Assembly: GCF_015169395.1 (NCBI RefSeq)
Contig: NZ_CP063458.1
Coordinates: 4,712,001-4,776,000 of the forward strand
Direction of reading: 5' to 3'
Source of the DNA: Humisphaera borealis
Lineage (GTDB): Bacteria > Planctomycetota > Phycisphaerae > Tepidisphaerales > Tepidisphaeraceae
DNA length: 64,000 bases
Below the pieces are notes generated by a model, which searched no databases, was not told where the DNA came from, and worked only from the letters and a program-made list of their open reading frames with translations. How positions within the stretch are numbered: the stretch's first letter is position 1; each line of letters opens with the position of its first letter. Shown in pieces: positions 31,338 to 60,698 of the stretch. Both the position numbers and the translations under genes were made by a program.

Positions 31338-34300
31338 ATGTCGAATCGCCAACGCGCCGTTCCGTCCATTGTGATGTCGTTGAATTCCGCCGTCAGCCGT
31401 GCCGTCGCGAAGATGGCCGGGAATCACGCGTCGTTCGAGTCGCTCGAGCAACGGACGTTGATGGCGGCGCAGCCAACCAGTTCGATGGCGTACGACGCCG
31501 CGGGCAATCTGCACCTGGCCTACTACGACGAGGCGGCAAAGAGCCTCAAGTACACGAAGCAGTCGCCGGGCGGAGCCTGGACGACAGCAATCACTATCGA
31601 CGCCACCAGCAGCGATGTCGGCAAGATGCCATCGCTGTCGGTCGATAGCGCCGGCCATCCCGGTGTCGCGTACTTCGATGCGACGAACGAAGACCTGCGC
31701 TACGCGTTTTTCAATGGCACGACCTGGAAGAACGTCGCGGTCGATACGAAAGACTCGGTCGGCCAGAACCCGTCGCTCGCCTTCGATGCCGCCGGCACCG
31801 CGATCATCAGCTACTACCGAAAGACGACCGGCGATCTGAGGCTCGCCACACTCAAGAGCTTGGCCAAGAACAAGTGGACGATCACGACGGTCGCCAAGAA
31901 GGGGGACGTCGGGCAGTTCAGCAGCCTGGCGATCGACCCTGCCACCAACAAGCCGACGGTCGCATTCAGCGACAGCGCCGGGCAGGTTCAATTCGTCGCC
32001 AGCGGCAAGAAGCCTGTTGTTGTCGATACCGTTTCGCCAGACGTCGCCAACGTGGACATCGCGTTCGGCAGCAACGGCCGGCCGACGATCAGCTACTTCG
32101 ATCCGGCCAGCGGCGCGATAAAGCTTGCCGAGGCCGGCGATGCAAAGGCCAAGTTCTTCACCAACGAGCCGATCGCCGAGGTTCCCGCCGGCAGCAATGC
32201 CAACCCGACGCTGATCATCGATCCGTCCACCGGCAAGCCGCAGGTCGTCTATTACGACGCCGAAGCGAATGGCGTGTTCCTGGCCAAGAAGGATGCCGGC
32301 GGCCAGGAGGTCGAAAAGGAACAGCTCAAGGCAGGTGGCGGCGAAGGATTCATCGCCACCCCACAGCCGGGCAATGACTCGATCAGCTTCGCCGTCGTCG
32401 ATACCACCGGCGAAGCCGAGGCGCCGGTCGAACTGGCCAACACCGAAACCACCCCGCTGCCGCCGACGAACGTGACGGCGATCGCCCAGAGCGAGAACGA
32501 AGTTCTGATCACCTGGGTCGATAACGCCAACAACGAGACCGGCTTCCTGGTCGAACGTTCGGTCGACGGCACCGTCTGGTCGGAAGTGGCCCAGGTCGCC
32601 TCCGACATCACCGAGTACGTAGACGACACCGCAGAAGAAGCGACGACCTACTACTATCGCGTCAGCGCCACCGGCGGCGCCGGCGAAACGAGCGTCGGCA
32701 CGACCGCGCCGCGTGTGTTCGGATCGGCAATCGTCACGTCGGCCAACAGCACCGTCGCGACGACGACGACACTTCCGAAGGCTCCTGCGGCTCTGGCGGG
32801 AACGCCGGTGTCAGACTCCAGGATCGATCTGACCTGGACGGATCGGTCCAGCGCCGAGACCGGCTACGTCGTCCTGATCTCCACGGACGGAGCCACCTGG
32901 GAGGTGCTGGCGACGCTTGGCGCCGACAGCACGGCCTACAGCGCGACATCGCTTCCCGAAGGGACGACTCGCCTGTTCGCCGTCTACGCAACAAGGGGAA
33001 ACCTTGCGTCCCACTGGTCGCAGGAAGTCGAAGTGACGACCAAGCCGGCCGCTCCCAGCGGCCTGACAGTCACCCAAATCTCCACTTCGCAGCTGAACCT
33101 GTCCTGGACGAACCACGCCGCCGCCGCCGACCACGTGACGATCGAACGGTCCACCAATGGCACCACCTGGACGACCGTCGCCAACCTGACGCCATCCACA
33201 GCCACCTACAACAATACCGGCCTGTCGGAAGGCACGGCGTACTACTTCCGCGTGAAGGCGGTCGGCGTTCACTCCAGTGCCTACTCGAATGTTGGCAACG
33301 GCACGACCAACCCGCTCGCCCCGTCGAATCTGGCGGCCACGGCCGTTTCGCCCACCCGCATCGACCTTTCCTGGACCGACAACACCACCGGCGAGACGTC
33401 CTATCTCGTGCAGCGGGCCTCGGGCGGAGGGGCGTTTGTTACCGTCGCGACGCTCGATGCCAACGTCACAACCTACGCCGACACCGGCCGCACCGAAGGT
33501 GTTTCCTACAGCTACCGCGTCAAGGCGGTGATCGGGTCGGAGGCCCAGAGCAGCTTCTCGGCGGAAGTCAGCAGCGAAGCGCTACCGTCAACCCCCACCA
33601 ATCTCGTCGCCGAGCTGGCCGCCGCCGGCCGTCATGTGGCGCTCACATGGACGGACAACGCCACCGGCGAAACCAGCTACGAGGTGCAGCGGCTGGCGTT
33701 CGGGTCGGAAACCTGGACCACGCTCGCCACGCTTGCCAGCAACGCTGCCTCCTATACCGATACGTCTGCCGCCGAGGCGACGACGTACACCTACCGCATC
33801 CGCGCGATCAATTCCGCCGGCGCGTCGGCATTCAGCGACACGTACGTCGCGACAACCGTCCCGGCTGATCCGACGGGCCTCATCGTCTCCACTCCGGCCA
33901 ATGACACGATCAACCTCTCCTGGACGGACAATTCCGCCGGTGAGACCGGTTTCGTTGTCGAACGTTCGACCGACGGCGTCAACTTCACCACGCTGACGAC
34001 CACCGCCGCCAGCGTCACCACGTACGAGAACGCCGATCTGGCGTCGGCCACGCAGTACACGTATCGCGTCAAGGCGATCAATGGAGCGGGCAGCAGTGGC
34101 TACACCACCACCGTCGCCGGCACCACTCGCACCGATGCCCCGGCCGATCTGGTCGCGACGAGCGTCTCGGACAGCCAGATCGATCTCGCCTGGTCCTCTG
34201 TTACGGGTGCCCAGGAGTATCGCGTCGAGCGATCGGAGGATGGCGGTACCACCTGGACGCCGATCGCATACACGGAGACCGCGGGCTATAGCGACGAACT

Positions 34301-37300
34301 GGTGGACGAGGCGGTCGCCTATAGCTATCGGGTGCTGGCGTCGAATGCCGGCGGCCTGAGCGAAGCAAGCTCCGACGACTCGGTCACGACGCGCCCCGCC
34401 GCCCCGACCGGCCTCTCGGCTGTTTCGAGCGACGGCGAGAGCGTCAGCCTCACCTGGTCGGACAACTCCGGTGGCGAAACCGGGTACGTCGTCGAGCGAA
34501 GCGCCGACGGCGGCACAACCTTCCCCACCAGCTTCAGTGTCGACGCCGACGCCGAGTCCTACACCGACACCACGGTGACCGAAGCGACGGCGTACGTGTA
34601 TCGCGTTCGCGCCACGGGCGTCGGCGGGCCTTCGGCCTACAGCAGCAACGCGAGCGTGACGACCCGACCGGCACTGCCGACAGGCGTGGTCGCCACAAGT
34701 GTCTCGGCCTCGCAGATTTCGATCGCGTGGGAGGACAACTCCGCCGGCGAAACCGGCTACCGCATCGAGCGGTCGGCCAATAGCGGCGCCTCGTGGACGA
34801 CCGTCGCCACGCCCGCCGCCAATGCCGAGCTGTACACCGACAGCGGCCTGAGCGCCGCGACCGCCTACGCCTATCGCGTGGTCGCGACCAGCACCCAGGG
34901 TGATTCGGTCGCCAGTGCCGACAGCACGGCGACGACGCGTACCCTCGCCCCGACCGAGCTCGAAGCGGTGACCAACTCGGAAGACCGGATCGACCTGAGC
35001 TGGTCGGCACCCGCCGGCGCGTCGGGCTTTGTCGTTTACCGCTCACTCGACGGGGTGAACTACACTTCGATCGCCACGCTAGGCAGCTCCGAGCTGACGT
35101 ACTCCGATACCGGCCTGACCGAGGCGACCGACTACTACTTCGAAGTCGTCGCCACTAATGCCGGTGGCGAGTCCGCGGCCGCCGGCACCTTCGGCACCAC
35201 CAAGCCGCTCGCGCCCGATACCGTCAGCGTTCAGGCCAACAGCGCCACCAGCGTTACCGTCACCTGGTCGGACAACTCCGCCGGCGAGGACGGCTATTAC
35301 GTCGAGGTCTCCACCGACGGCGGAAGCACCTTCAGCGACGCCGGCCAGGTACTGGCTGATGTCGAGACGCTGAACGTCACGGTCGCTGAAGGGACCAGCC
35401 CGGTGTTCCGCGTGCGGGCGATCAAGAGCGGCGTCTTCTCCCCTTACTCGGAGACGGCGACCACAGACACCATTCCCGCCGCCCCGTCGGCGGTCGCCGT
35501 GAACAGCGTCAGTGCCGCCAGCTTGAGCGTCACCTGGGCCGACAACTCGGCGAATGAAACCGGCTTCCGGATCGAGCGATCGACGGATGGAATCAACTTT
35601 GTGCAGGTCGGAACGGCCGACGCCGGCGAGACGACCTTCACCGACACGGGCCTTGATGAGGGCACGGAGTACACCTACCGCGTTCGCGCCACGATGGGCG
35701 TGAGCCGCAACAGCGCTTACAGCGACACAGACAGTGCCGTCACACGACCGGCAGCGCCGACCGGCCTGAATGCCGCACTCGTCGTCGGCGGCGTGGACCT
35801 GACCTGGACCAACCTGTCGGTCAACGCAGACTCGTACGTGATCGAGCGATCCAGCAATGACGGCGACACCTGGAGCCAGATCGGCACGGCCAACACCACC
35901 AGCTATAGCGACACGACGACCTCCGCCGGCCTTTCGTACCTTTACCGCGTATTGTCCGTGAACGAAGGCGGCGCTTCCGTGGCCAGCAGCGAGGCCGCTG
36001 CCACGCTCGTGCCGAACGTTCCGCAGAACGTGACGGCAACACTGCAGGCTGGCGGCGACGATGTCACCGTCTCCTGGACCGACACCGCCGGCGAAACCGG
36101 CTACAGCCTGTACCGCAGCGACGATGGGGGCTCCAATTGGTCGCTGATCGCGACCCTGCCTGCCGGCGAAACCAGCCACGATGATGCGGTCTCGGAGAAC
36201 GCCGAGTACCAGTACCGGGTCCGCGCCTTCAACGGCAGCGGCGAGTCCGTCGATAGTGCCGAAGCGATCGTCAACACCACGCTTGTTCCGGCCAGCGGCG
36301 TCGCCGCGACGGCGACGCCGACCTCGGTCACCGTGACGTGGGACGACAACTCCTCCGGCGAGGCCGGCTACAGCGTTCAGCGTTCGAGCAACGGCGGCAA
36401 CAGTTGGACGCAGGTCGGCACCGCCGCTGCCAATGCCGAAACCTACACCGACAGCACCGTCGCGCAGGGCACGAGTTACCGCTATCGCGTGACGGCAACC
36501 AATGGCCTGGTCGTTTCTACACCTTCGTCATCCACCACGATCATTACCCGGCTGGCAGTCCCCACAGGCCTGACGGCTACATCACCTTCGTCGTCACAGA
36601 TTGATCTTAGCTGGACCGACAACGCCACCAACCACTTGGGTGTGCAGATTCTCAAGAGCAGCGACGGCGTGAACTTTACGCAGGTCGACTTCGTAAACGC
36701 CGGCACACATACCTGGTCCGACACCGGCCTGGATGAGGCGAGCACGTATCAGTACAAGGTCCGCGCCGCCAGTGCGATTGCGACGTCGGATCCGACGTCT
36801 GCAGTGGTCGGCCTGGTGCGTCCGTCGGCCCCCTCGCAGCTTGAAGCGACGGTCGAATCGGATACCGCGATCACGCTGACCTGGACGGACACCTCGGCCG
36901 GAGCCACCGGCTTTACGATCGAGATCTCCGACGACGGCGGCAGCAACTGGGCCGTCGCCGGCACCACCAATGGCGCAACGACCTTCGCCGACACCGGTCT
37001 GACGGAAGGCACCACCTATGTCTACCGTGTCGCGGCGACGAATGCTTCGGGCGCATCGACCGTGGTGGGCCTGACCGCCACCACGAACCCGGCTGCCCCG
37101 ACCGGCTTGTCGGTCACGGCCGCCAGCCCGACGCAGGTCGATCTGTCCTGGACGAACGTGTCGGCAAGCGACACCACCGTTCGCATCGAGCGCAGCGAGG
37201 ACAGCGGTCCATTCACCACGCTTGCCAGCGTTGCCGCGAGCGAGAACACCTACAGCGATACCTCGGCCGTCGAAGGAACGGACTACGCCTACCGCGTGGT

Positions 37301-40300
37301 CGCTGTTTACCTGAGCGATTCGGCCGCGAGCAACACCGACACCGTCACCACGCCGCCTTCGGCCGCCACTGCACTGCAGGCCGACGTGCTCGGTGATACG
37401 TCGATCGACGTAACCTGGACCGACACCTCCGCGCACGAGACGGAATTCCGAATCGAGCGGTCCACCGACGGCGTCAACTTCACCTCGATTGCAACGCAGA
37501 TTCCGAACTACAACTTCTACACCGACAATTCCGGCGTCGAGGGTACGAGCTACACCTATCGCATTGTCACCGTGCAGGATTCGCTGGAGACGACCTCCGC
37601 GACGATCACCGCCCAGACCGCACCGGCCGCGCCGAGTGGTCTGTCGGCCGCTTCGCCGGCGGCGGGGACGGTCAACCTCACCTGGAGCGACAACTCGGCC
37701 AACGAGACCGGTTTCATCATCGAACGGTCGGACGACGGCGACGAGTTCGCTCAGATCGGCACCGCCGATGCCGGCGAGACCACGTACAGCGATACGACAG
37801 TCGCCGCGGGTTCCACACACTACTACCGGGTGCTTGCGGTCCAGGGGATCAATAGCGCCCCCACGGGTGAAGTGACGGGCGTAAGCCGTCCGGCCGCGCC
37901 GGCAAACTTTGCCGTCACCGCCCTTAGTCCAACGACATCGACGGTCGCGTGGGATGCGGTCACCGGCGCGACGGGCTACACCATCGAAATCTCCACCGAC
38001 GCCGGCAGCAACTGGACCCAGGCCGGTACGACCACGTTCGCAACGAGCTTCGACGACACCGGTCTGACAGAGTCGGACGACTACGTCTACCGCGTGATCG
38101 CGACCAACGCCGGCGGGGCGAGCGTGGCCTCGGCGACGGTCAACATCCACACCCTGCCTGCGGCGCCGACCGATCTGGTCGCGACGGCTTCGATACCGAC
38201 GCAGGTCAACCTGGCCTGGACGGACAATTCCACCTCCGGCGTCGCCGACATCCTGGTCTACCGGGCCCTGGGCGAGCTGCCGGCCGAGAACGACTTCTCC
38301 CTGCTGACGACACTCAGCCCGGGCAGCGAGAGTTACAGCGACACGACGGTGCAGGGTGGCCTGGCGTACACGTACAAGCTGGTCGCCGACGACGGCGACG
38401 CGGTCAATGGCAACGTGACCGACAGCGTCACCACGCCGCCCGCCGCCGTGACGGCGCTCAATGCCGTCTCCAGCACGCCGACAACCGTTGACATCAGCTG
38501 GACGGCTTCCAACGGCGCGACGACCTACACCGTCGAGCGTTCGACGGATGGCGTCAACTTCGCCGAGCTGGCTGAAGTGCAGACCAACAGCTACAGCGAC
38601 GAGACCGCAGTTGAAGCGACCGAATACACATACCGCGTGACGCCCACCGGCGCCGGCGGAGATGGCCCCACGGCGACCGATGTGGTCACCACACTTCCTG
38701 CGGCGGTGACGACGATCACCGTCAGCGGCTACACCGCGACCAGTGTTGATCTTGCCTGGACCGACCCCTCGGCCGGTGAAACCGGCTTCCGCATCGAGCG
38801 GTCGACCGACGGCGAGAACTGGACCACCCTCACCACCACCGCGGCCGACGCCGAAACCTACACCGATTCCACTGCGGTCGAAGCCACAACCTACGCTTAC
38901 CGTGCCGTGCCCGTCGGCAGTGGCGGCGATGGTTCGGCTGCGGTCGCCGATGTCACCACGCTACCAGCGACACCGACCGGTGCGGTTGCGACGGGTGTCT
39001 CGTCTACGCAGGTCGATCTCGCCTGGAACGACAACTCGGCCGGCGAACAGAGCTACACCATCCTGCGGTCGGTCAGCGGCGGCGGGTATACCGTGCTGGC
39101 CAGCGGCCTGGATGCTGGGACCGAGAGCTACTCGGATACAACGGTGCAGCCCGGCACCGCGTACGCCTACAAGCTGGTCGCCGAGGGTGTCGGCGGTTCG
39201 TCCGCCGAGAGCTCCGCTGCCACCGTCACCACGGTGCCCAGTGAGCCGGCTGATGTGACGGCGACGATGACCAGCATCACTGAAGTTGCGATCGCTTGGA
39301 CGGATGTCTCAGGTAACACCAGCTACCGCATCGAGCGTAAGGCCGGCAATGGCGCGTTCGCCGAGATCGTCAACAGCCTCGGGGCCGATGCCACCAGCTA
39401 CGACGACGAAACCGCGGTCGAAGGCACGAGCTACGTTTACCGCGTGTTCGCGGTGAATGCCGGCGGCGACAGCGCCCCGAGCAGCGAGGCCGCGGTCACC
39501 ACCGCGCCCGCCGGGCCGAGCAATCTCGCCGCCAGCGATACCGACGCCACGACAATTCACCTCACCTGGGACGACAACTCCTCGGGCGAGACGTCGATCA
39601 CCGTGCAGCGGTTCGACGATTCGGCGTGGGTCACCATCGCCACGCTCGACACGGATACCGAGTCGTACGATGACACCGTCGCCACCGGAAGCACGCACAC
39701 CTATCGCGTGTTCGCGAGCAACACCGGCGGCGATAGTGCCCTGAGCGGCACGGCATCGGCGACTACCGTTCCGGCCCAGGTGACGGGTGTCACCGCCGTC
39801 GCCAGCGGTACAACCACCGTGGATGTCGCCTGGAGCCTGGTCAGCGGAGCGACCGGCTACCGCGTCTATCGCAGCGACGATGCCGGGGCGAACTTCAGCC
39901 AGCTCGGCACCGATCTGGACGACGAAACCGCGTCGTTCGAAGACGCGACCGCCACCGAAGCGACCGCGTACGTGTATCGCGTGGAGGCGTTCAACGCGTC
40001 GGGCGCTGGCGCGGTCAGCGGCAATGCCGCCGTCGCTACTCCGCCGATCGCTCCGACCTCCCTCATTCACACAGCCGCCAGCACGTCGGGCATCGATCTG
40101 CAGTGGGTGGACAACTCGGCCCACGAGACCGGCTTCCTGGTGCAGCACTCCACCGACGGCGGCACGACCTGGGAGGACGTCGGCACCGTCGCCGACGTTG
40201 ACGGTACCGGCGACACCACGTCGCTTACCGACAATGACGTCGTCGAAGGTGCGACCTACCAGTACCGCGTTCGCGCACTCTTCGGCGACGCCAGCTCGGC

Positions 40301-43300
40301 GTGGACTTCCGTCCACACTGCCGACACCGAGCCGGAGTACACGACCAATCTCGCGGTTGCCAGCTTCACCAACACCGCTGTCAGCCTCACCTGGACCGAC
40401 AACTCGGCCGGCGAAGCCGGATTCAGCGTGCATCGTTCCGGCGACGGCGGCACAACCTGGACCACGCTCGCGACGCTCGACCCGAACACTACCGCCTACA
40501 CCGACAGCACCGCCGTACAGTCGACGGCGTACCTGTACCGCATCCGCACGTTCCGCGGCGACGCCGAGGGCTACACCTCGAACGTCTCGGTGACTACCCG
40601 CCCGACGGCGGCCACGGGCCTGGCGGCGACCGCGACGAGCCCGACCTCCGTCGATCTTGAATGGACCGACAATGCCACCGCCGAGGACGGCTACAAGATC
40701 GAGCGGTCGGTCGACGGTGGTACCAACTGGTCGCAGATTGCTTCGATCGCGTCGGGCAGCGAGAGCTACACGGACAGCAGTGCGCCGGAGTCGGCGACGA
40801 CCAGCTACCGAGTGATCGCGTACAAGGGCGCAATCGACTCTGCCGCCAGCACGGCCGACACCGTCACCACGCCGGTCGCAACGCCCAGCGGGCTTGCGGT
40901 CACCGCGACGTCGCACGATGCCGTCAGCCTGAGCTGGACCGACAACAGCGGGGCTGAAACCGGACAGCGGATCGAGCGCTCGACCGACGGCGGCAATACA
41001 TGGTCGGCACTGGTAACGGTCGCCGTGGATGCCGTCAGCTACAGCGATACCACCGTCTCTGAAGACACGGCTTACAGCTACCGCATCGTCGCTCTGGTCG
41101 GCGAGGCCGAGAGCAACGGGAGCGCTGCCGATGATGTCACCACGCCACTGGCGATGCCGACGACGCTCGCTGCCACGTCGCCGACGGCCACCAGTGTCGC
41201 GCTGACCTGGACCAACGTTTCAACCGCGGCCGAAGACGTCGTGATCGAGCGTTCCGCCGACGCCGGAAGCAACTGGACGACGGTCGCGACCATCGCCGCG
41301 TCCAATGACGACTACACCGACTCGACCGTCACCGAAGGCACGGCTTACCTCTACCGCATCAGCGCGGTGAAGACGGGCAACGCATCTGCGACGACCGGAT
41401 CGGTCGCCGTCACCACGCTGCCTGCAGCCCCGACGGGCGTATCGACCACGTCCATCACCACCACCGGTCTGACGGTCACCTGGACCGACAACGCCGCGGG
41501 CGAGGACGGCTTCGAGGTCGAAGTTTCGACCGACGGCGGCGACACCTGGAGCACGGCCGGCACCGCGGATGATGTCGCCGGCACCGGCGACACCGGTTCG
41601 CTCGTGCAGACGGGCCTCACCGAGGGATCGACCTACGTCTACCGCGTCCGGGCGACATCCGGCGGGCGGCTTTCTGCCTGGAGCTCAACGCACACCGTCG
41701 ATACGCGCCCGGTCGCACCGAGCGCGCTGGCCGTCACCACCTTCACCGATACCGTCGTCAACCTGGCCTGGACGGACAACTCCGCCGGCGAGACCTCGGT
41801 CGAGGTCGATCGTACTACCGACGGCGGCAACAACTGGACGACCATCGCAACGCTTGCTGCAGATGCCGTCAGCTACAGCGACACCGGCCGTACGCAGTCT
41901 TCGGAGTACGTCTACCGAGTCCGCGCGGTGCGCGGCACGAGCGCCTCGGCGTACACGTCTGATGTCACGGTCACCACCCGGCCGACCGCGGCTTCCGGCC
42001 TGACGGCGACGGCAGCCACGCCGACCTCGATCAACCTCGCCTGGACGGATAACGCATCCGCCGAGGACGGCTACAAGATCGAGCGGTCGGTGGACGGCGG
42101 CGAGAACTGGACGGAGATCGCGCAGGTCGCCGCCGACGCCGAGAGCTACACCGATGCCCTGGCGCCGGAATCGGCGACCGCCAGTTATCGAGTGATCGCC
42201 TACAAAGGCCTGATCGACTCGGCCCTGAGCAACGAAGATTCCGCGACCACACCCGTCGCCATCCCGAACGATCTGGCCGTCTCGGCGACCTCGCACAATG
42301 CCGTCGGCCTGAGCTGGACGGACAACAGCGATGCCAATGATTCGCAGCGAATCGAGCGTTCCACCGACGGCGGCACGAGCTGGTCCACGCTCGCGAGCGT
42401 TGGGGCCAACGAGTCCACCTACAGCGACACCACCGTTGTTGAGGACACCGCCTACGCGTACCGCATCGTCTCGCTGGTGGGCGAAGCCGAAAGCACGCCG
42501 AGCGCCTCTGATGATGTCACCACGCCGCTGGCAATGCCGACGGCACTGGCGGCCGCGTCGCCGACGGCGACCAGCGTCGAACTGACCTGGACGAACGTCT
42601 CGACCGCCGCAGAAGATGTCGTGATCGAACGCTCGGCCGACGCCGGTGCCAACTGGAGCACGCTCGCGACGATTGACGCCGTCAACGACAGCTACACCGA
42701 TTCCACGGTGTCGGAAGGGTCGGCGTATCAGTATCGCATCCACGCGATCAAGACCGGCAACGCGTCGTCCACGACCGCGGCTGCCAGCGTCATCACCTTG
42801 CCGGCCACCCCGACAAGCTTTGACGCCACGGTCTTCTCGCTCAGCCAGATCGACCTGGCCTGGAACGACAACGCCGGCAGCGAGACCGGCTACCGCATTG
42901 AACGTTCCGAGAACGGCGGCGCCTACAGCGAACTGGTCACCGTCGCGGGAGACGTCGAAAGCTACAGCGACACCTCGGTTCATGAGGGCGGCACGTTTGC
43001 CTACCTTGTTTACGCACTCGGTGCCGGTGGAAACTCGGCCACCGCGACCGACACCGCCATCACCGCTCCGGCTGATCCGTCCGGGTTCACCGTGACACCC
43101 GTCACCGCGACACGGATCGACGTCGCCTGGAGCGACAACTCGTCCGGCGAAACCAGCTACGTGCTGCAACGCTCGACCGATGGCGGCAGCACTTGGTCCG
43201 CCTTGGCGACGCTGGACCCCAACACCACCAGCTACAGTGACACGTCCGTCACCGAAGCGACGACTTACGACTACCGAGTCCGCGGCGTGCGAAGCTCGGC

Positions 43301-44984
43301 CGTCTCGGGCTGGGTGGCCGGCGATGCCACCACCGTACCGGCCACGCCGACCGGCCTTGTGGCGACGGTCCCGGCGGGTACGCCCCGTGTGAACCTCGCC
43401 TGGAACGACAACTCCGCCGGCGAGAACGGCGTGCAGGTCGAACGGTCGGAAGACGGCGGCACCAACTGGACGCTCCTTTCCACCGCGGCAGCCAACGCCA
43501 CCAGCTACAGCGACACGACGGTCGTCGAAGGCACGACCTACCAGTACCGCATCCGCGCCACCAGCGCGGCGGGCAACTCCACCTGGGCGACTTCGGTGAC
43601 CGCCAGCACCTTGCCGGCCACACCGACGGGCCTCTCCGCGACCGCGATCAGCTACAACCAGGTGAACCTTGCCTGGACGGATAACTCGGCGAGGGAGAAC
43701 GGGTTCCTGGTCGAGCGTTCGATCGGCGGCGTGACTTGGTCGTCCGTCGCGACGCTTGCCGCTGACACGGTCAGCTACAGCGATACGGCTGTCGGCGAAG
43801 GCTTCACGTATCAGTACCGCGTTCGAGCCACGACGGCTGCGGTCAACGGAAGCCCCAGCGGCACCGCCAGCGCGACGACGCCCGTCGCCGCACCCACCAA
43901 CCTTGCCGCGACCGCCGTCTCCACCACGCAGGTCAACCTGACCTGGACGGACAACTCGGCCGTCGAGAGCAATTACAAGATCGAGCGGTCTACGGACGGC
44001 GGCTCGACGTTCTCGGCCCTGACCACCGTCGTCGCCGGCAGCACCAGCTACAGCGACACGACCGCCACGGCGGGGACGACCTACGTCTACCGTGTCCGGG
44101 CGACCAAGGGTGCGATCCTGTCCACCTATGCCACCAGCAGCGCGGTGACGACCGCGCCGACCGCGCCGAGCAACCTCGCGGCAACCGCCGCTTCGCACTC
44201 GGACGTCAATCTCACCTGGACCGATGCCCAGGGCGAGACGGCGTACACCATCGAGCGGTCGGCCAACGCCGGATCGACCTGGTCCACGCTCACCACGGCC
44301 GTCGCCGCCAACGCGACGACGTACACCGACACCACCGCGACCGAAGAGACGGCCTACCTCTACCGCATCCGGGCGACCAACGCCGCGGGATCTTCGGCGA
44401 ACGTGACGTCGGCCTCGGTGACCACGCTCCCCGCCGCGCCGGCCGATGTCGTCGCGACCAGCGAATCGTCCGACACCATCAGCCTCTCCTGGACGGATGT
44501 CAGCTCGGCCGAGAGCGGCTACAAGATCGAACGCCAGATCGAATCCAGCGGCAACTGGGTGCAGATCGCCACCGTCGGGGGCAACGTCACGTCGTACGTC
44601 GATCCGACCTGCGACGAGAGCGTGGCGTACGAGTACCGCGTGCGGGCCACCAGCGGGCCGCGGAACAGTGCCTACAGCAACACCACTGTGGCGACGACCA
44701 TTCCGTTCCCGCCGGACAGCCTGGTCGTCACGGCAACGTCCGCCAGCAGCATCAGCCTGCAGTGGACCAACCCGTCAAACGCACCGACGATGGTCATCGA
44801 ACGTTCGACCGACGGCGGCGACACGTTCACCGCGATCGGCACGACCGGCCAGGGCGGGACGACGTACACCAACACCGGCCTGTCGGCCGATACGACGTAC
44901 GTCTACCGCATCCGGGCGTACAACGGCGACGGCGGCTTCAGCGACCCGACCAACACGGTCGTCGCGGCCACCGACGCGGAGTAA
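31338..44984 (+). CDS. Giant fibronectin type III repeat surface protein (4548 aa)
   Basis: No classical signal peptide; instead residues 32-43 read SFESLEQRTLMA, a LEPR-xLL-like motif near the N-terminus as in the RTX-calpain protein. Residues about 48-350 carry six propeller-like repeats of roughly 45-50 residues (cores such as PSLSVDSAGHPGVAYFD, PTLIIDPSTGKPQVVYYD). From about residue 375 to the end I count 46 fibronectin type III modules of about 88-93 residues, with the recurring core WTDNSAGETGY-IERS, Y-D, Y-YRV and a TT-P-AP linker. There is no sortase motif, PEP-CTERM or membrane anchor at the C-terminus. It is probably a long extracellular fibre or adhesin; binding partner unknown. 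A hairpin repeat and a terminator follow. Confidence 0.92.
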   Translation: MSNRQRAVPSIVMSLNSAVSRAVAKMAGNHASFESLEQRTLMAAQPTSSMAYDAAGNLHLAYYDEAAKSLKYTKQSPGGAWTTAITIDATSSDVGKMPSLSVDSAGHPGVAYFDATNEDLRYAFFNGTTWKNVAVDTKDSVGQNPSLAFDAAGTAIISYYRKTTGDLRLATLKSLAKNKWTITTVAKKGDVGQFSSLAIDPATNKPTVAFSDSAGQVQFVASGKKPVVVDTVSPDVANVDIAFGSNGRPTISYFDPASGAIKLAEAGDAKAKFFTNEPIAEVPAGSNANPTLIIDPSTGKPQVVYYDAEANGVFLAKKDAGGQEVEKEQLKAGGGEGFIATPQPGNDSISFAVVDTTGEAEAPVELANTETTPLPPTNVTAIAQSENEVLITWVDNANNETGFLVERSVDGTVWSEVAQVASDITEYVDDTAEEATTYYYRVSATGGAGETSVGTTAPRVFGSAIVTSANSTVATTTTLPKAPAALAGTPVSDSRIDLTWTDRSSAETGYVVLISTDGATWEVLATLGADSTAYSATSLPEGTTRLFAVYATRGNLASHWSQEVEVTTKPAAPSGLTVTQISTSQLNLSWTNHAAAADHVTIERSTNGTTWTTVANLTPSTATYNNTGLSEGTAYYFRVKAVGVHSSAYSNVGNGTTNPLAPSNLAATAVSPTRIDLSWTDNTTGETSYLVQRASGGGAFVTVATLDANVTTYADTGRTEGVSYSYRVKAVIGSEAQSSFSAEVSSEALPSTPTNLVAELAAAGRHVALTWTDNATGETSYEVQRLAFGSETWTTLATLASNAASYTDTSAAEATTYTYRIRAINSAGASAFSDTYVATTVPADPTGLIVSTPANDTINLSWTDNSAGETGFVVERSTDGVNFTTLTTTAASVTTYENADLASATQYTYRVKAINGAGSSGYTTTVAGTTRTDAPADLVATSVSDSQIDLAWSSVTGAQEYRVERSEDGGTTWTPIAYTETAGYSDELVDEAVAYSYRVLASNAGGLSEASSDDSVTTRPAAPTGLSAVSSDGESVSLTWSDNSGGETGYVVERSADGGTTFPTSFSVDADAESYTDTTVTEATAYVYRVRATGVGGPSAYSSNASVTTRPALPTGVVATSVSASQISIAWEDNSAGETGYRIERSANSGASWTTVATPAANAELYTDSGLSAATAYAYRVVATSTQGDSVASADSTATTRTLAPTELEAVTNSEDRIDLSWSAPAGASGFVVYRSLDGVNYTSIATLGSSELTYSDTGLTEATDYYFEVVATNAGGESAAAGTFGTTKPLAPDTVSVQANSATSVTVTWSDNSAGEDGYYVEVSTDGGSTFSDAGQVLADVETLNVTVAEGTSPVFRVRAIKSGVFSPYSETATTDTIPAAPSAVAVNSVSAASLSVTWADNSANETGFRIERSTDGINFVQVGTADAGETTFTDTGLDEGTEYTYRVRATMGVSRNSAYSDTDSAVTRPAAPTGLNAALVVGGVDLTWTNLSVNADSYVIERSSNDGDTWSQIGTANTTSYSDTTTSAGLSYLYRVLSVNEGGASVASSEAAATLVPNVPQNVTATLQAGGDDVTVSWTDTAGETGYSLYRSDDGGSNWSLIATLPAGETSHDDAVSENAEYQYRVRAFNGSGESVDSAEAIVNTTLVPASGVAATATPTSVTVTWDDNSSGEAGYSVQRSSNGGNSWTQVGTAAANAETYTDSTVAQGTSYRYRVTATNGLVVSTPSSSTTIITRLAVPTGLTATSPSSSQIDLSWTDNATNHLGVQILKSSDGVNFTQVDFVNAGTHTWSDTGLDEASTYQYKVRAASAIATSDPTSAVVGLVRPSAPSQLEATVESDTAITLTWTDTSAGATGFTIEISDDGGSNWAVAGTTNGATTFADTGLTEGTTYVYRVAATNASGASTVVGLTATTNPAAPTGLSVTAASPTQVDLSWTNVSASDTTVRIERSEDSGPFTTLASVAASENTYSDTSAVEGTDYAYRVVAVYLSDSAASNTDTVTTPPSAATALQADVLGDTSIDVTWTDTSAHETEFRIERSTDGVNFTSIATQIPNYNFYTDNSGVEGTSYTYRIVTVQDSLETTSATITAQTAPAAPSGLSAASPAAGTVNLTWSDNSANETGFIIERSDDGDEFAQIGTADAGETTYSDTTVAAGSTHYYRVLAVQGINSAPTGEVTGVSRPAAPANFAVTALSPTTSTVAWDAVTGATGYTIEISTDAGSNWTQAGTTTFATSFDDTGLTESDDYVYRVIATNAGGASVASATVNIHTLPAAPTDLVATASIPTQVNLAWTDNSTSGVADILVYRALGELPAENDFSLLTTLSPGSESYSDTTVQGGLAYTYKLVADDGDAVNGNVTDSVTTPPAAVTALNAVSSTPTTVDISWTASNGATTYTVERSTDGVNFAELAEVQTNSYSDETAVEATEYTYRVTPTGAGGDGPTATDVVTTLPAAVTTITVSGYTATSVDLAWTDPSAGETGFRIERSTDGENWTTLTTTAADAETYTDSTAVEATTYAYRAVPVGSGGDGSAAVADVTTLPATPTGAVATGVSSTQVDLAWNDNSAGEQSYTILRSVSGGGYTVLASGLDAGTESYSDTTVQPGTAYAYKLVAEGVGGSSAESSAATVTTVPSEPADVTATMTSITEVAIAWTDVSGNTSYRIERKAGNGAFAEIVNSLGADATSYDDETAVEGTSYVYRVFAVNAGGDSAPSSEAAVTTAPAGPSNLAASDTDATTIHLTWDDNSSGETSITVQRFDDSAWVTIATLDTDTESYDDTVATGSTHTYRVFASNTGGDSALSGTASATTVPAQVTGVTAVASGTTTVDVAWSLVSGATGYRVYRSDDAGANFSQLGTDLDDETASFEDATATEATAYVYRVEAFNASGAGAVSGNAAVATPPIAPTSLIHTAASTSGIDLQWVDNSAHETGFLVQHSTDGGTTWEDVGTVADVDGTGDTTSLTDNDVVEGATYQYRVRALFGDASSAWTSVHTADTEPEYTTNLAVASFTNTAVSLTWTDNSAGEAGFSVHRSGDGGTTWTTLATLDPNTTAYTDSTAVQSTAYLYRIRTFRGDAEGYTSNVSVTTRPTAATGLAATATSPTSVDLEWTDNATAEDGYKIERSVDGGTNWSQIASIASGSESYTDSSAPESATTSYRVIAYKGAIDSAASTADTVTTPVATPSGLAVTATSHDAVSLSWTDNSGAETGQRIERSTDGGNTWSALVTVAVDAVSYSDTTVSEDTAYSYRIVALVGEAESNGSAADDVTTPLAMPTTLAATSPTATSVALTWTNVSTAAEDVVIERSADAGSNWTTVATIAASNDDYTDSTVTEGTAYLYRISAVKTGNASATTGSVAVTTLPAAPTGVSTTSITTTGLTVTWTDNAAGEDGFEVEVSTDGGDTWSTAGTADDVAGTGDTGSLVQTGLTEGSTYVYRVRATSGGRLSAWSSTHTVDTRPVAPSALAVTTFTDTVVNLAWTDNSAGETSVEVDRTTDGGNNWTTIATLAADAVSYSDTGRTQSSEYVYRVRAVRGTSASAYTSDVTVTTRPTAASGLTATAATPTSINLAWTDNASAEDGYKIERSVDGGENWTEIAQVAADAESYTDALAPESATASYRVIAYKGLIDSALSNEDSATTPVAIPNDLAVSATSHNAVGLSWTDNSDANDSQRIERSTDGGTSWSTLASVGANESTYSDTTVVEDTAYAYRIVSLVGEAESTPSASDDVTTPLAMPTALAAASPTATSVELTWTNVSTAAEDVVIERSADAGANWSTLATIDAVNDSYTDSTVSEGSAYQYRIHAIKTGNASSTTAAASVITLPATPTSFDATVFSLSQIDLAWNDNAGSETGYRIERSENGGAYSELVTVAGDVESYSDTSVHEGGTFAYLVYALGAGGNSATATDTAITAPADPSGFTVTPVTATRIDVAWSDNSSGETSYVLQRSTDGGSTWSALATLDPNTTSYSDTSVTEATTYDYRVRGVRSSAVSGWVAGDATTVPATPTGLVATVPAGTPRVNLAWNDNSAGENGVQVERSEDGGTNWTLLSTAAANATSYSDTTVVEGTTYQYRIRATSAAGNSTWATSVTASTLPATPTGLSATAISYNQVNLAWTDNSARENGFLVERSIGGVTWSSVATLAADTVSYSDTAVGEGFTYQYRVRATTAAVNGSPSGTASATTPVAAPTNLAATAVSTTQVNLTWTDNSAVESNYKIERSTDGGSTFSALTTVVAGSTSYSDTTATAGTTYVYRVRATKGAILSTYATSSAVTTAPTAPSNLAATAASHSDVNLTWTDAQGETAYTIERSANAGSTWSTLTTAVAANATTYTDTTATEETAYLYRIRATNAAGSSANVTSASVTTLPAAPADVVATSESSDTISLSWTDVSSAESGYKIERQIESSGNWVQIATVGGNVTSYVDPTCDESVAYEYRVRATSGPRNSAYSNTTVATTIPFPPDSLVVTATSASSISLQWTNPSNAPTMVIERSTDGGDTFTAIGTTGQGGTTYTNTGLSADTTYVYRIRAYNGDGGFSDPTNTVVAATDAE
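40053..41429 (+). repeat. FN3 five-module block, copy A (modules 29-33)
   Basis: 1377 bases coding 459 residues; the order and idiosyncrasies of its five modules are repeated in copy B. Shared marks include a GTGDT insertion in the first module, AEDGYKIERSVDGG and SYRVIAYKG in the third, and STAAEDVVIERSADAG in the fifth. Confidence 0.88.
41430..42809 (+). repeat. FN3 five-module block, copy B (modules 34-38)
   Basis: 1380 bases coding 460 residues, directly adjacent to copy A; module by module it is closer to copy A than to its own neighbours. Confidence 0.88.
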
Positions 44985-50749: not shown

Positions 50750-51271
50750 CTACGTGAAGTGAACAGGCAGCGCCATCGCCATCGCCCAGATGAACATCAC
50801 GAAGCCGAAGACCACTTTCAGGATCGTGCCGTAGAGTCGTCCCTTGGTGGCGACGGCGCCGATGACGATCGTGTGATAGACCTTCTTGCCGGCGATCCAT
50901 TCACCGAGCGTTGCGCCCAGGAACGTGCCGGCCAGCACGCCGATGAGCGTGCCGACCACCGGGATGGGGATGAGCCCGGTCAGGAAGATCGCGCCCGCCA
51001 GCCCGCCGACGATCGCGCCGACTGAACCCCATCGGCTGCCGCCGATCTTGGAGGTCGCCCGGCCGGCGGCGAGGAACTCGACCACCTCGCCCACCGTCGC
51101 GAGCACCAGCAGTGCGATCATCGTGTAGAGGCCGACGTAGGCCCATCCCGTAACCCAGCCGTAGAGAAAGGCGCACAGCAGGATGAGCCAGTTGCCGGGC
51201 AGCGTCAGGACATTCAGCACGAGCCCGCAGATCAGCAGCAGGGCGAGGATTGCGTAGTAGAGCCAGTCCAT
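50750..51271 (-). CDS. DUF456-family membrane protein
   Basis: 173 aa from the ATG at 51271, where the first membrane helix begins (MDWLYYAILALLLICGLVLN); the longer frame to 51403 runs across a palindromic repeat. Nearly the whole chain is hydrophobic, with about five membrane helices, and glycine-rich segments such as GAIVGGLAGAIFLTGLIPIP and GTFLGATLGEW are typical of DUF456. Family function is unknown. The next gene upstream on the same strand is the ECF-like factor, separated by a double hairpin. Confidence 0.85.
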   Translation of the reverse strand: MDWLYYAILALLLICGLVLNVLTLPGNWLILLCAFLYGWVTGWAYVGLYTMIALLVLATVGEVVEFLAAGRATSKIGGSRWGSVGAIVGGLAGAIFLTGLIPIPVVGTLIGVLAGTFLGATLGEWIAGKKVYHTIVIGAVATKGRLYGTILKVVFGFVMFIWAMAMALPVHFT

Positions 51272-51327
51272 TGGGGTGCGGTCACTTGAAGACAGTTCCG
51301 AACGAGACGACGCGTTTGCGTACACGC

Positions 51328-51371
51328 CCACGGACAGCAGTCCGTGGGACCCACCGCGGCGCGGTGGGCGT
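51328..51371. repeat. Double palindrome upstream of the DUF456 gene
   Basis: CCCACGGAC-AGCA-GTCCGTGGG is followed directly by a CCCACCGCG/CGCGGTGGG palindrome. It lies between two minus-strand genes and may be a dispersed repeat or terminator for the ECF-like gene. Confidence 0.65.
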
Positions 51372-51410
51372 GGTGCATCGAGCCAAAGACAGATCATCGC
51401 CAAAGACGGA

Positions 51411-52136
51411 TCACTGTAGTCCGATGAGTCTCAGCAAGTCGGCGCGGTAAATCCACGCAAGAGCGAGCAACGAGATGACAACGGTCAGGAATACGAGCCG
51501 GGCAATTCGGACCGCCGACCGACGATCCGCCCAGGCACCGACACGGGCAGTGACGAACTGTTCCGTGACATCGGGGGAGGGACCCAGTGCGACAACGGCC
51601 GTGCGAAGCACACGCGTCAGAGGTTCGAACTGTTCGCCCGCTAGCGCCCGCATCGCATTGTCGGCGGCGCGAAGGTGGTTCTCGGCGGCGGTGGTCGAAC
51701 AGTCCATCGACACCCCCAGCAGCCGGCTGTTCATCCGCTGGCCATGATGCAGGATAAACGCCTCGGCCTGCTGCGGTGGCAGTCGGCGGATCCCGCGGAC
51801 GAACGCGGCCCACGCGGGGGTTTGCTGGTCGGAAGCGACCGCTTTCACGAGCAGGTCATCCGCCGAATCGGGCCGGCCGGGCGACACCCTTCGGACCGTC
51901 TGAAGGGCGTGGTGCGAGAACCAGTGCTCGGGATCGACGTGTTCGTTCCAGCGGGGCAGCACCGTCAGCGCGTGGCGGAAGCTGATGTCGACGATGCGAT
52001 CTGCGAAGTCGGCGTCGCCGCAGAGGGCACGCACCAGCCGACAAACGCCGGGGTGCACTTGTCGGAAGACCGCTTCAATCGCACGGCGGTTCCCGCTTCG
52101 GGCGCGTTCGAGCGTGTCTTCACCAATCTCGGTCAT
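51411..52136 (-). CDS. ECF-like sigma factor with C-terminal membrane helix
   Basis: 241 aa from the ATG at 52136. Residues 5-60 resemble sigma70 region 2 (LERARSGNRRAIEAVFRQVHP, then a DADFADRIVDISF helix). Residues about 115-165 resemble region 4 (RLPPQQAEAFILHHGQ, then an HTH-like LLGVSMDCSTTAAENHLRAA). The order and spacing fit an ECF factor, but the match is loose. A linker leads to one membrane helix near the C-terminus (about 212-230, LVFLTVVISLLALAWIY). Such a tether would keep it at the membrane until released. No separate anti-sigma gene is adjacent. It could instead be a degenerate, non-DNA-binding relative. Confidence 0.65.
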   Translation of the reverse strand: MTEIGEDTLERARSGNRRAIEAVFRQVHPGVCRLVRALCGDADFADRIVDISFRHALTVLPRWNEHVDPEHWFSHHALQTVRRVSPGRPDSADDLLVKAVASDQQTPAWAAFVRGIRRLPPQQAEAFILHHGQRMNSRLLGVSMDCSTTAAENHLRAADNAMRALAGEQFEPLTRVLRTAVVALGPSPDVTEQFVTARVGAWADRRSAVRIARLVFLTVVISLLALAWIYRADLLRLIGLQ

Positions 52137-52161: not shown

Positions 52162-52192
52162 ACACGCCCGGAACGAAACGTTCCGGGCGTGT
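52162..52192 (-). terminator. clpC terminator
   Basis: A perfect 14-bp stem (52162-52175 with 52179-52192) with a 3-base loop lies 32 bases past the clpC stop and is followed on the minus strand by CTGTTT. Confidence 0.8.
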
Positions 52193-52223: not shown

Positions 52224-54767
<2,544 letters not shown>

Positions 54768-55220
54768 ATTGTTCTCCTGCTCGGCACTGATCTTCCCCGG
54801 ATTGTCCGGTGAAGCCATGTGCTTCATCTTTTCAATACATTTCCGTCGCCTGCCTTCGGCCGGCGAGGGTCGTGAGCCGCATCCCTGCGGGGGTTCTCAC
54901 GAATCAACGAGTTCCGCTACGAACACTGTCTTCCGTTCCGTCGCGTACAACAGCCGCGACCATCGACTGCCCGCTGGCCGCTCGCGACCGAACGATTCTA
55001 GGTTGCACCGCCGGGTTATCAAGGAATCGGCGAGTGTTGTGTTACGGAGATTTTTGGCAGTCGCGTTTCGCCGGTTTGCCGATAATGGCAGGCGGTGATG
55101 GTGCGCGCACGTCCGCGGGTTGAGCCGGCGGGCTGCTTCGGCTATCACCGACTGCTGGATCGGCCTCGAGCGGCGTTTGCCCCGGTGGCCGCCAGTTTGG
55201 CATTCGCTTGCGGAGTCCGG
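54768..55220. other. Divergent intergenic region clpC / DedA gene
   Basis: 453 bases with no credible ORF. It contains a stem-loop in the clpC leader (54870-54902) and should hold both promoters. No CIRCE-type heat-shock inverted repeat was seen. Confidence 0.5.
54870..54902 (-). promoter_or_regulatory. Two-tier stem-loop in the clpC leader
   Basis: TCGTGAG/CTCACGA and an inner CCGCA/TGCGG stem (loop TCCC, 3' side bulge GGGTT) lie about 100 bases upstream of the clpC ATG. It could be a leader structure; function not proven. Confidence 0.35.
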
Positions 55221-59228: not shown

Positions 59229-60698
59229 TCAGTGCTTCCGTCCCCGCCACAGATGCCGCACGCCCTGCACCGCGCCGGTCGGCGTGGGGAAGAGCAGATT
59301 CTTCAGCGCCCGCCCGAGCCAGTCTTTCCACCTCAGCACCCGGATGCGGAGTTCCAGCCGTTGCAGCGAGGCATCGCGCGGGTCGAGCCGCAGGCCCTCT
59401 TCCACCCAGTAGGTGGCTTGTTCGTACTTGCGGAGCCGCTCGTACGCCAGCGCGAGGTTGTAGACCGCCATCACGTGCTTGGGATCAACCGCCAGGCAGC
59501 GTCGGCAGCTTTCGATGCCGTCTTCGAAGCGGTCGCAGAGGAATTGCGCGACGGCCAGGTTCTGCCAGCCGTCGGCGTGGTCGGGGTCGAGAGATACAAG
59601 GCGTTTTAGGCAGGCGATCGAGGCGCGGGACAAGCCGGTGTCGATCAGGAGATTCGACAGCTCCAGGAGAATCTGGGGGTTGTGCGGTCGCAGGAGCATC
59701 TCGGCGCGTAGGTGCTTGCGGGCCAGCGTGCGTTCCCCACGCGAATGGTGAATGCCGGCCAGCCTCAGGTGTGCGCCGGCAAAGGTGGGGTCCAGCGCCA
59801 GAACTCGGCGAAAGGCGTCGGCGGCGCGGTCGTGGGCGAAGGCAGTGCGCTCGGAAAACGCGCCGATGCGGAAGCCATTGGCATCCGCCGATGCCGCAGA
59901 CGCCAGGCCCGCGCTGGCAGCGCCGTGTCGCAGGAGCCACTGACCGTAGTGGAAGTAGCCGGCCGGGCGTTCGGGGGCCAGTTCGATGGCGCGATGGAAC
60001 TTTTCCCCCGCCTCATCGACCCGGCCCATCTCGATCAGCAATTCGCCCAGGTCCAGTAACGTGTCGGTATTGCCCGGCTCCTTGCGCAGTGACATCAGGT
60101 AGTGCTGGCGCGCGGCCTCAAGTTCCCCCTTTTGCCAAAGGGACTCGGCGATGCGGAGCTCGATCTGCGGAAAGCTTTCGTCAAGTTCAGCGGCCTTGCG
60201 GAAGCACCAGACGGCTTTGTCGAGATTGCCCCGTTCCAGCAGGCTCAGTCCCAGGTTGTGATAGCAATCGGGACACTGATCCTTGAACAGCCGGGCGGTG
60301 TAGAACATTTCCTCGGCGCGCTGGTGGTCGCCGATCTCGGCGTAAGCGAGGATGCGGTTGCAATAGCTCGGTTCGTAGCTGGGATCGACGGCCTCGATGC
60401 GCTCGAAGGTGGCGATGGATTCGTCGAGTCGGCCGAGCCGTCGAAGGTCGGCGCCGATGTGCGTCATCGCGTGCAGGTCGTTGGGTTCGATCTCCAGGGC
60501 CCGGCGGTAGGCATCAATCGCCTCGTCGAATCGGTCCATTTCGTCGAGCGTCAGGCCGATATTGAAGTACCAGGCGGCGTTGTACGGATTGATGTTCGTG
60601 GCGGCGCGCAGTTCCTCCAGCGCCTCGCTCCAGCGTTGCTGTTCAAAGAGTTCCTGGGCTCTTTCGACCCGTCGCTCGGCATCATCCCAATCGTTCAT
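59229..60698 (-). CDS. Tetratricopeptide-repeat protein
   Basis: 489 aa from an ATG, cytosolic. At least ten TPR units are visible between residues 5 and 450 (cores such as WYFNIGLTLDEMDRFDEAIDAYRRALEIEP, CYHNLGLSLLERGNLDKAVWCFRKA and AVYNLALAYERLRKYEQATYWVEEGL), with the canonical W-L-G-Y-A-A-P pattern. No signal peptide or enzyme domain is present. The C-terminal 40 residues are basic. Its role is probably as a scaffold; the partner is unknown. It converges on the SpoIIE gene and is divergent from the HEAT-repeat gene. Confidence 0.88.
   Translation of the reverse strand: MNDWDDAERRVERAQELFEQQRWSEALEELRAATNINPYNAAWYFNIGLTLDEMDRFDEAIDAYRRALEIEPNDLHAMTHIGADLRRLGRLDESIATFERIEAVDPSYEPSYCNRILAYAEIGDHQRAEEMFYTARLFKDQCPDCYHNLGLSLLERGNLDKAVWCFRKAAELDESFPQIELRIAESLWQKGELEAARQHYLMSLRKEPGNTDTLLDLGELLIEMGRVDEAGEKFHRAIELAPERPAGYFHYGQWLLRHGAASAGLASAASADANGFRIGAFSERTAFAHDRAADAFRRVLALDPTFAGAHLRLAGIHHSRGERTLARKHLRAEMLLRPHNPQILLELSNLLIDTGLSRASIACLKRLVSLDPDHADGWQNLAVAQFLCDRFEDGIESCRRCLAVDPKHVMAVYNLALAYERLRKYEQATYWVEEGLRLDPRDASLQRLELRIRVLRWKDWLGRALKNLLFPTPTGAVQGVRHLWRGRKH

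Follow-up and report, generated by a model that had tools for sequence, protein, structure and literature searches.

A conserved sigma-fold protein with a predicted C-terminal membrane anchor in Humisphaera borealis: a candidate repurposed ECF sigma factor

ECF sigma factors that carry their own membrane part have been described in several groups. IutY (ECF243) is reported to be a membrane-fused ECF factor released by proteolysis, proteolytic release is expected for ECF48, ECF52 and ECF53, and the extensions of ECF48, ECF52 (SCO4117), ECF53 and IutY are described as anti-sigma-like, with a zinc finger, one to two helices and up to 400 residues (PMC8999054). Sigma mimicry is also known: the sigma-like domain of PhyR antagonises an anti-sigma in the alphaproteobacterial general stress response (PMC4814048, PMC5830050).

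The gene described here lies in a window of 64,000 nucleotides from the H. borealis genome (NZ_CP063458.1, positions 4,712,001 to 4,776,000) and encodes a protein that, like IutY, ECF48, ECF52 and ECF53, joins ECF sigma2 and sigma4 to a C-terminal transmembrane sequence in one chain. Unlike these groups, compared here by description, the window protein has an extension that consists of some 40 residues in helical form, a single membrane helix and a brief tail, and its family misses the sigma signature residues. When 17 family members were compared with Pfam at E values up to 10, no anti-sigma or zinc-finger family was matched. The sigma-like domain of PhyR gives a structural match of Z 13.1 to the window model. 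PhyR also has a response-regulator domain, for which the 17 members show no Response_reg match in Pfam, and it is a soluble protein, in contrast to the membrane segment found here. Fold and domain order are those of SigW, CnrH and RpoE, from which the protein differs by its membrane segment and by the missing region 2.2 and recognition-helix residues. A membrane-anchored sigma-like family of this class was not found in the literature searched, whose coverage was partial; the tether and the mimicry have precedents when taken singly, and within that coverage their combination, a membrane-anchored fold without the usual signatures, appears to be new. It should also be mentioned that a genome of the same family (G007) encodes an ordinary ECF (L024) whose open frame continues into an extended C-terminus rich in hydrophobic stretches, which, judged by eye, is another kind of membrane-fused ECF.

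The gene occupies positions 51411-52136 on the minus strand (241 amino acids plus stop). An upstream ATG would give an alternative of 263 amino acids, which was rejected because most orthologs begin at the level of the 241-residue form and because the longer start places a strong hairpin within the gene. Sixteen further relatives from the same family, 31-47% identical, were found among 41 genomes searched, and the alignment of the 17 members was used as a profile in the following comparisons; for one of them (L008), which lacks a common start codon around the position where the alignment begins, another codon in the same frame was taken as the start.

The sigma-fold identity is clear because of these relatives, while the matches of the window protein itself to curated models are only weak. 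It scores 19.3 bits with Pfam Sigma70_r4_2, under the cut-off of 25.7, and has no Pfam match to Sigma70_r2; the best NCBIfam sigma model gives an E value of 2e-05, far under the cut-offs (sigma70-ECF scores 12 against 42.9). The curated ECF models of Pfam and NCBIfam are thus not reached at their cut-offs by this protein on its own. In the family, Sigma70_r4_2 is matched by all 17 members (E up to 10; best 1.9e-07) and Sigma70_r2 by six (Pfam, best E 0.0081). The family profile aligns with that of 18 ordinary ECFs of the same genome at a profile-profile probability of 98.7 over 160 columns, covering both sigma regions, and ECF chains rank first when it is compared with solved structures. The AF2 model (pLDDT 94.3, pTM 0.87) was matched by VIA-align to SigW (Z 16.4, 153 residues at 2.9 A), CnrH (15.3) and PhyR (13.1). 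Profile comparison, model and structural alignment all place sigma2 before sigma4, in the ECF order. The window product is a sigma-fold protein of ECF ancestry, and the region 2-like and region 4-like helices that an earlier note had read from the DNA, with only a loose similarity to ECF factors, are borne out.

The profile matches to the PhyR family are not specific. The NCBIfam PhyR family matches 14/17 members at E<=0.001 and Pfam PhyR_sigma2 matches 5/17 at E<=10; ordinary sigma models match more (two models reach 17/17), PhyR_sigma2 also matches 3/18 ordinary ECFs, and the structural model of an ordinary ECF matches PhyR as well. The model resembles anti-sigma-bound ECFs, but this compactness was discarded as a sign of self-inhibition, since L047, an ECF from this genome modelled as a control, is closest to equally compact structures (5uxx, Z 18.7; SigW, 17.9). 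Linker confidence is 50-65 in the control model versus 83 or more in the window model, a difference that may be an effect of alignment quality.

Concerning the domains, the sigma2-like part spans residues 6-84 (51885-52121, minus strand, as are all the parts that follow), with modelled helices at 6-13, 17-39, 42-62 and 69-84. By column comparison it lacks the acidic residue and the Gln of region 2.2, at residues 47 and 50. The short linker that alignment and model place at residues 85-106 (51819-51884) holds the invariant L96 and leads to the sigma4-like domain, residues 107-170 (51627-51818), whose recognition helix is without the usual Arg residues. Eighteen columns are invariant in the 17 members. 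In the sigma4-like domain these include R117, Q122, E125, R138, the M144-D145-C146-S147 motif (MDCS), A150, H154 and A158, and R33, W72, R82 and L96 are among the others. Six of these residues, R117, Q122, R138, D145, S147 and H154, never change within the family but do so among the control ECFs. The spacing from W72 to L119 is 39-46 residues in the members versus 50-70 in 18 ECFs (50-73 in 24). The short linker was not retained as decisive proof against sigma function, since SigL of Mycobacterium tuberculosis works with a 20-residue connector, with which it spans RNA polymerase (PMC6372665).

The window genome has 53 region-4 matches, 50 of them over the family cut-off. Twenty of the 53, all over the cut-off with 38 bits or more, were hand-picked as controls. 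The exclusion of L048 (uncertain start) and L057 (a different ECF type) left 18; both were restored in a wider control of 24 ECFs, for which the ORF finder lost 13 of 17 extra ECFs and in which xL135 appears misaligned. In other sigma factors, region 2.2 residues bind core RNA polymerase and Arg residues of the recognition helix bind -35 DNA. The acidic residue at position 47 is present in 0/17 members versus 18/18 ECFs of the same genome, and the Gln at position 50 in 0/17 versus 16/18. Regarding sigma4, Arg occurs at 157 in no member and at 159 in one, versus 13/18 controls at each position, and the charge of the recognition helix ranges from -1 to +1 in the family (mean -0.24) versus +1 to +5 in the 18 ECFs (mean +3.28). 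The wider control (Gln in 21/24, acidic residue in 23/24, charge -1 to +5) agrees with the smaller one, the single exception being one ECF with a recognition-helix charge of -1. The sigma2 head is net positive, with a mean of +5.4 in members versus +3.1 in controls, which gives no argument against nucleic-acid binding.

These substitutions do not come from decay of the gene. The dN/dS values of two close pairs are 0.16 and 0.17, and those of separate parts of the protein 0.12-0.22; such low values indicate that the gene is retained, and it is under purifying selection. A pseudogene is ruled out by these values together with the conservation.

After the sigma4-like domain, the recognition helix extends in the model to residue 183 (helix 148-183) and turns, and a second helix, 188-229, holds the hydrophobic segment. 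The stalk corresponds to residues 171-210 (51507-51626), the predicted membrane helix to residues 211-229 (51450-51506) and the short tail to residues 230-241 (51414-51449). The Kyte-Doolittle peak of the window protein, 2.44, falls at residues 211-229. A C-terminal hydrophobic peak is present in 17/17 members, with values of 1.41-2.75 versus 0.34-1.65 in the 18 ordinary ECFs, so that two members (1.41 and 1.53) fall under the highest ordinary-ECF value. The segment recurs in 29/29 members when a sister clade of 12 is added to the 17, and the idea of an ordinary ECF with a stray tail was abandoned because all 29 have the same architecture. So far as hydropathy and a modelled helix can tell, the protein is membrane-anchored, and the single C-terminal membrane helix of the earlier note is upheld. 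The 20 residues before the segment have a net positive charge in 16/17 members, including the window protein, which by the positive-inside rule would put the sigma head in the cytoplasm and the tail outside the inner membrane.

As a separate observation, nine of the 17 members (L007, L009, L011, L012, L013, L016, L017, L018 and L019) end exactly in an [I/L/V]-[E/D]-hydrophobic pattern, found as IEI, IEY, LDL, VEW, IEF, IDW and VEI. These ends resemble a free C-terminal PDZ ligand, which the end of the window protein (LIGLQ) does not, and that a PDZ protease might read them is speculation.

In the family of H. borealis, a profile search gave full-length relatives in 17/26 genomes and in 11/13 of those of best quality, a count that omits the matches of G014 and G015, which are at the level of ordinary ECFs. 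The gene is absent from the other 9/26 (2/13 of the best), so it is not indispensable. In 392 genomes of the phylum, a search with the family profile that scored the best 7 candidates per genome gave matches reaching the C-terminus in three genomes, G000, G046 and G167, which all belong to the same class; in six other genomes the match does not extend beyond profile positions 3-169, and these proteins look like ordinary ECFs. As only the best 7 candidates per genome were scored, absences in this search and in that of 397 genomes mentioned below are weak. A single-protein scan of a wider contig collection gave no relative, and with the closer alignment it gave 8, apparently all within the known set.

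The profile searches of 397 genomes, again with the best 7 candidates per genome, revealed the sister clade, whose 12 more distant members belong to three other families of the class; L126/L132 was judged to be an ordinary ECF and dropped from it. All 12 retain the MD[CS]S motif and the C-terminal hydrophobic segment. The sister profile aligns with the family profile at 99.6 (score 164, 187 columns including the C-terminus), its ordinary-ECF counterpart being 97.8 (score 85, 147 columns). In a tree built on the sigma part, with the membrane part trimmed and only L057 omitted from the controls, the 29 members are split from 23 ECFs with an SH-aLRT of 99. The sister-clade proteins appear to begin at the second helix of sigma2, without the first one, depending on the chosen start codons: several of the genes have longer upstream open frames, while in L091 and L129 the frame ends 11 and 5 codons, respectively, upstream of the start that was used. 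The recognition helix carries a charge of +1 or +2 in 7/12 of these proteins and of +2 in 5/12.

Regarding the neighbourhood, a gene for a DUF456 membrane protein lies downstream on the same strand (50750-51403; Pfam DUF456, 82.2 bits; better start ATG at 51271) and is a possible operon partner. A same-strand DUF456 gene is found within 260 bp in 7/16 other family loci and within 2.2 kb in two more. In Bacillus subtilis the DUF456 protein is YqgC, which has been linked with sodA to manganese homeostasis (PMC10888875); this offers no clear lead for the present locus. An AddB-like nuclease gene also lies downstream, on the strand of the window gene. Upstream is a clpC-like gene (52224-54827, minus strand; homologs by tblastn) whose product we take from its sequence to be ClpC. 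A clpC gene lies on the same strand within 240 bp upstream in 3/16 other loci and further off in two, and the remaining loci have other neighbours, by eye. All these counts are lower bounds because contig ends cut some of the neighbourhoods (for example L027, L028 and L036). Pfam on three window neighbours returned DUF456, AddB and VTT/DedA, and neither among these nor among the others, inspected by eye, was an anti-sigma gene recognised, as the earlier note had stated.

The gap between clpC and the window gene contains a hairpin whose 14-bp stem is perfect, with a loop of 3 bases and no T-run (52162-52192, minus strand). Its folding z is -4.37, none of 200 shuffles folds as well, and a consensus scan gave no terminator there; perhaps the clpC transcript ends at it or is stabilised by it. 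Further away, a TPR-like gene recognised by eye (59229-60698) has a homolog close to the sigma-like gene of L033 and of L035, which points to partial conservation of the wider neighbourhood. The window also holds a 4548-codon ORF at 31338-44984 that carries an LEQRTLMA stretch close to its beginning and resembles the giant secreted proteins of planctomycetes, and two adjacent ORFs at 12742-13784 in which, by eye, a transposase with a helix-turn-helix seems to be split.

In 6/12 loci of the sister clade, the gene is followed by one for a histidine kinase and one for a REC-HTH response regulator (two pairs by Pfam, all six by tblastn). These loci (L090, L094, L095, L127, L128 and L131) come from six genera, the regulator is of the REC-HTH_3 type, the kinases are 53-61% identical to that of L095 and the regulators 67-71%. 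L127 and L131 also show ABC-transporter-like genes (FecCD type, by eye) divergently upstream.

How, then, could this protein act? The earlier note proposed a tethered sigma factor that would need proteolytic release. Its ECF ancestry, anchor and conserved architecture stand, and neither of the two outcomes that the note had named as refuting it, the lack of any match to a sigma family or a C-terminus of non-membrane character, was observed. A sigma factor that still works is not supported, given that the region 2.2 signature is absent from 17/17 members, Arg 157 from 17/17 and Arg 159 from 16/17, and that the sister clade apparently lacks the first sigma2 helix. An ECF factor that is still active, and that its own helix keeps at the membrane until regulated intramembrane proteolysis releases it, is nevertheless the most serious rival, although in our opinion an unlikely one. 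The fold is complete and modelled with high confidence, the hydrophobic segment is found in all 29 members, W72 is invariant and Trp stands there in 14/18 ECFs. Besides, there are precedents, both for release from a fused C-terminal membrane part (PMC8999054) and for a linker of 20 residues in SigL, so that the 22 residues of the model would be long enough (PMC6372665). Ordinary ECFs vary at the signature sites (2/18 without the Gln, 1/24 with a charge of -1), so core and DNA could be bound by other residues. Against it count the near-neutral recognition helix and the lost residues of both sigma regions, together with the lack in the 17 members of the anti-sigma or zinc-finger families (by Pfam) described for ECF48, ECF52 and ECF53 (PMC8999054). 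The signature loss in the 17 members and the apparent truncation in the sister clade make a repurposed fold likelier than a releasable sigma.

Two other alternatives give the protein a different task. If it were a membrane accessory of adjacent signalling genes, namely the kinase and REC-HTH regulator in part of the sister clade and DUF456 in the window family, the six kinase-linked loci and the DUF456 gene within 260 bp in seven other loci and in the window would be explained. However, the six form one clade (SH-aLRT 87), and the regulator was found in 40/397 class genomes, all of one family, and in 0/26 genomes of the window family at E<=1e-25, so the linkage may be one inherited arrangement and was not kept as a general function. 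Nor was a sigma-like gene seen at 16 other kinase loci in a crude ORF screen (20 were fetched, 4 without a kinase match), and this explanation is improbable. Regulators of the ToxR/CadC type are membrane-bound and use a helix-turn-helix, and by analogy the sigma4 helix-turn-helix alone might serve as a membrane-bound DNA-binding regulator. It carries most of the invariant residues, its region-4 model is matched by all members at E up to 10, and 7/12 sister-clade recognition helices are positive, whereas those of the window clade lie between -1 and +1 without the usual Arg residues. Moreover, the modelled stalk leaves the recognition helix straight toward the membrane, and the retention of sigma2 would have no reason. 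We consider this the least probable of the explanations.

The explanation to which we lean, tentatively, is an ECF sigma factor repurposed as a membrane-anchored interaction module, a sigma mimic. The cytoplasmic head would keep the sigma2-sigma4 fold with its core-binding and -35-binding residues replaced and family-specific ones fixed instead, and the recognition helix would run through the stalk into the single membrane helix. On the inner side of the membrane, the head would most likely bind another protein; this partner could be an anti-sigma or another sigma ligand, and the mimic could thereby set the free level of another ECF system. The loss of sigma activity and the mimic role are what we infer. 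No anti-sigma gene, as a candidate partner, was recognised among the neighbours, and the charge of +2 in five sister-clade recognition helices counts against the mimic.

In our judgement, it is poorly understood how large sets of ECF factors are kept separate, and this genome has 53 region-4 matches. A conserved, anchored sigma fold without the usual core-binding and -35-binding residues would be either a tethered sigma factor with unusual contacts or a sigma fold reused as a regulator. It is possible, if still rather doubtful, that this class has its own family of sigma-fold proteins that are anchored in the membrane, have given up the initiation of transcription, and titrate anti-sigmas or couple the envelope to regulators, which would make them a membrane-bound counterpart of PhyR.
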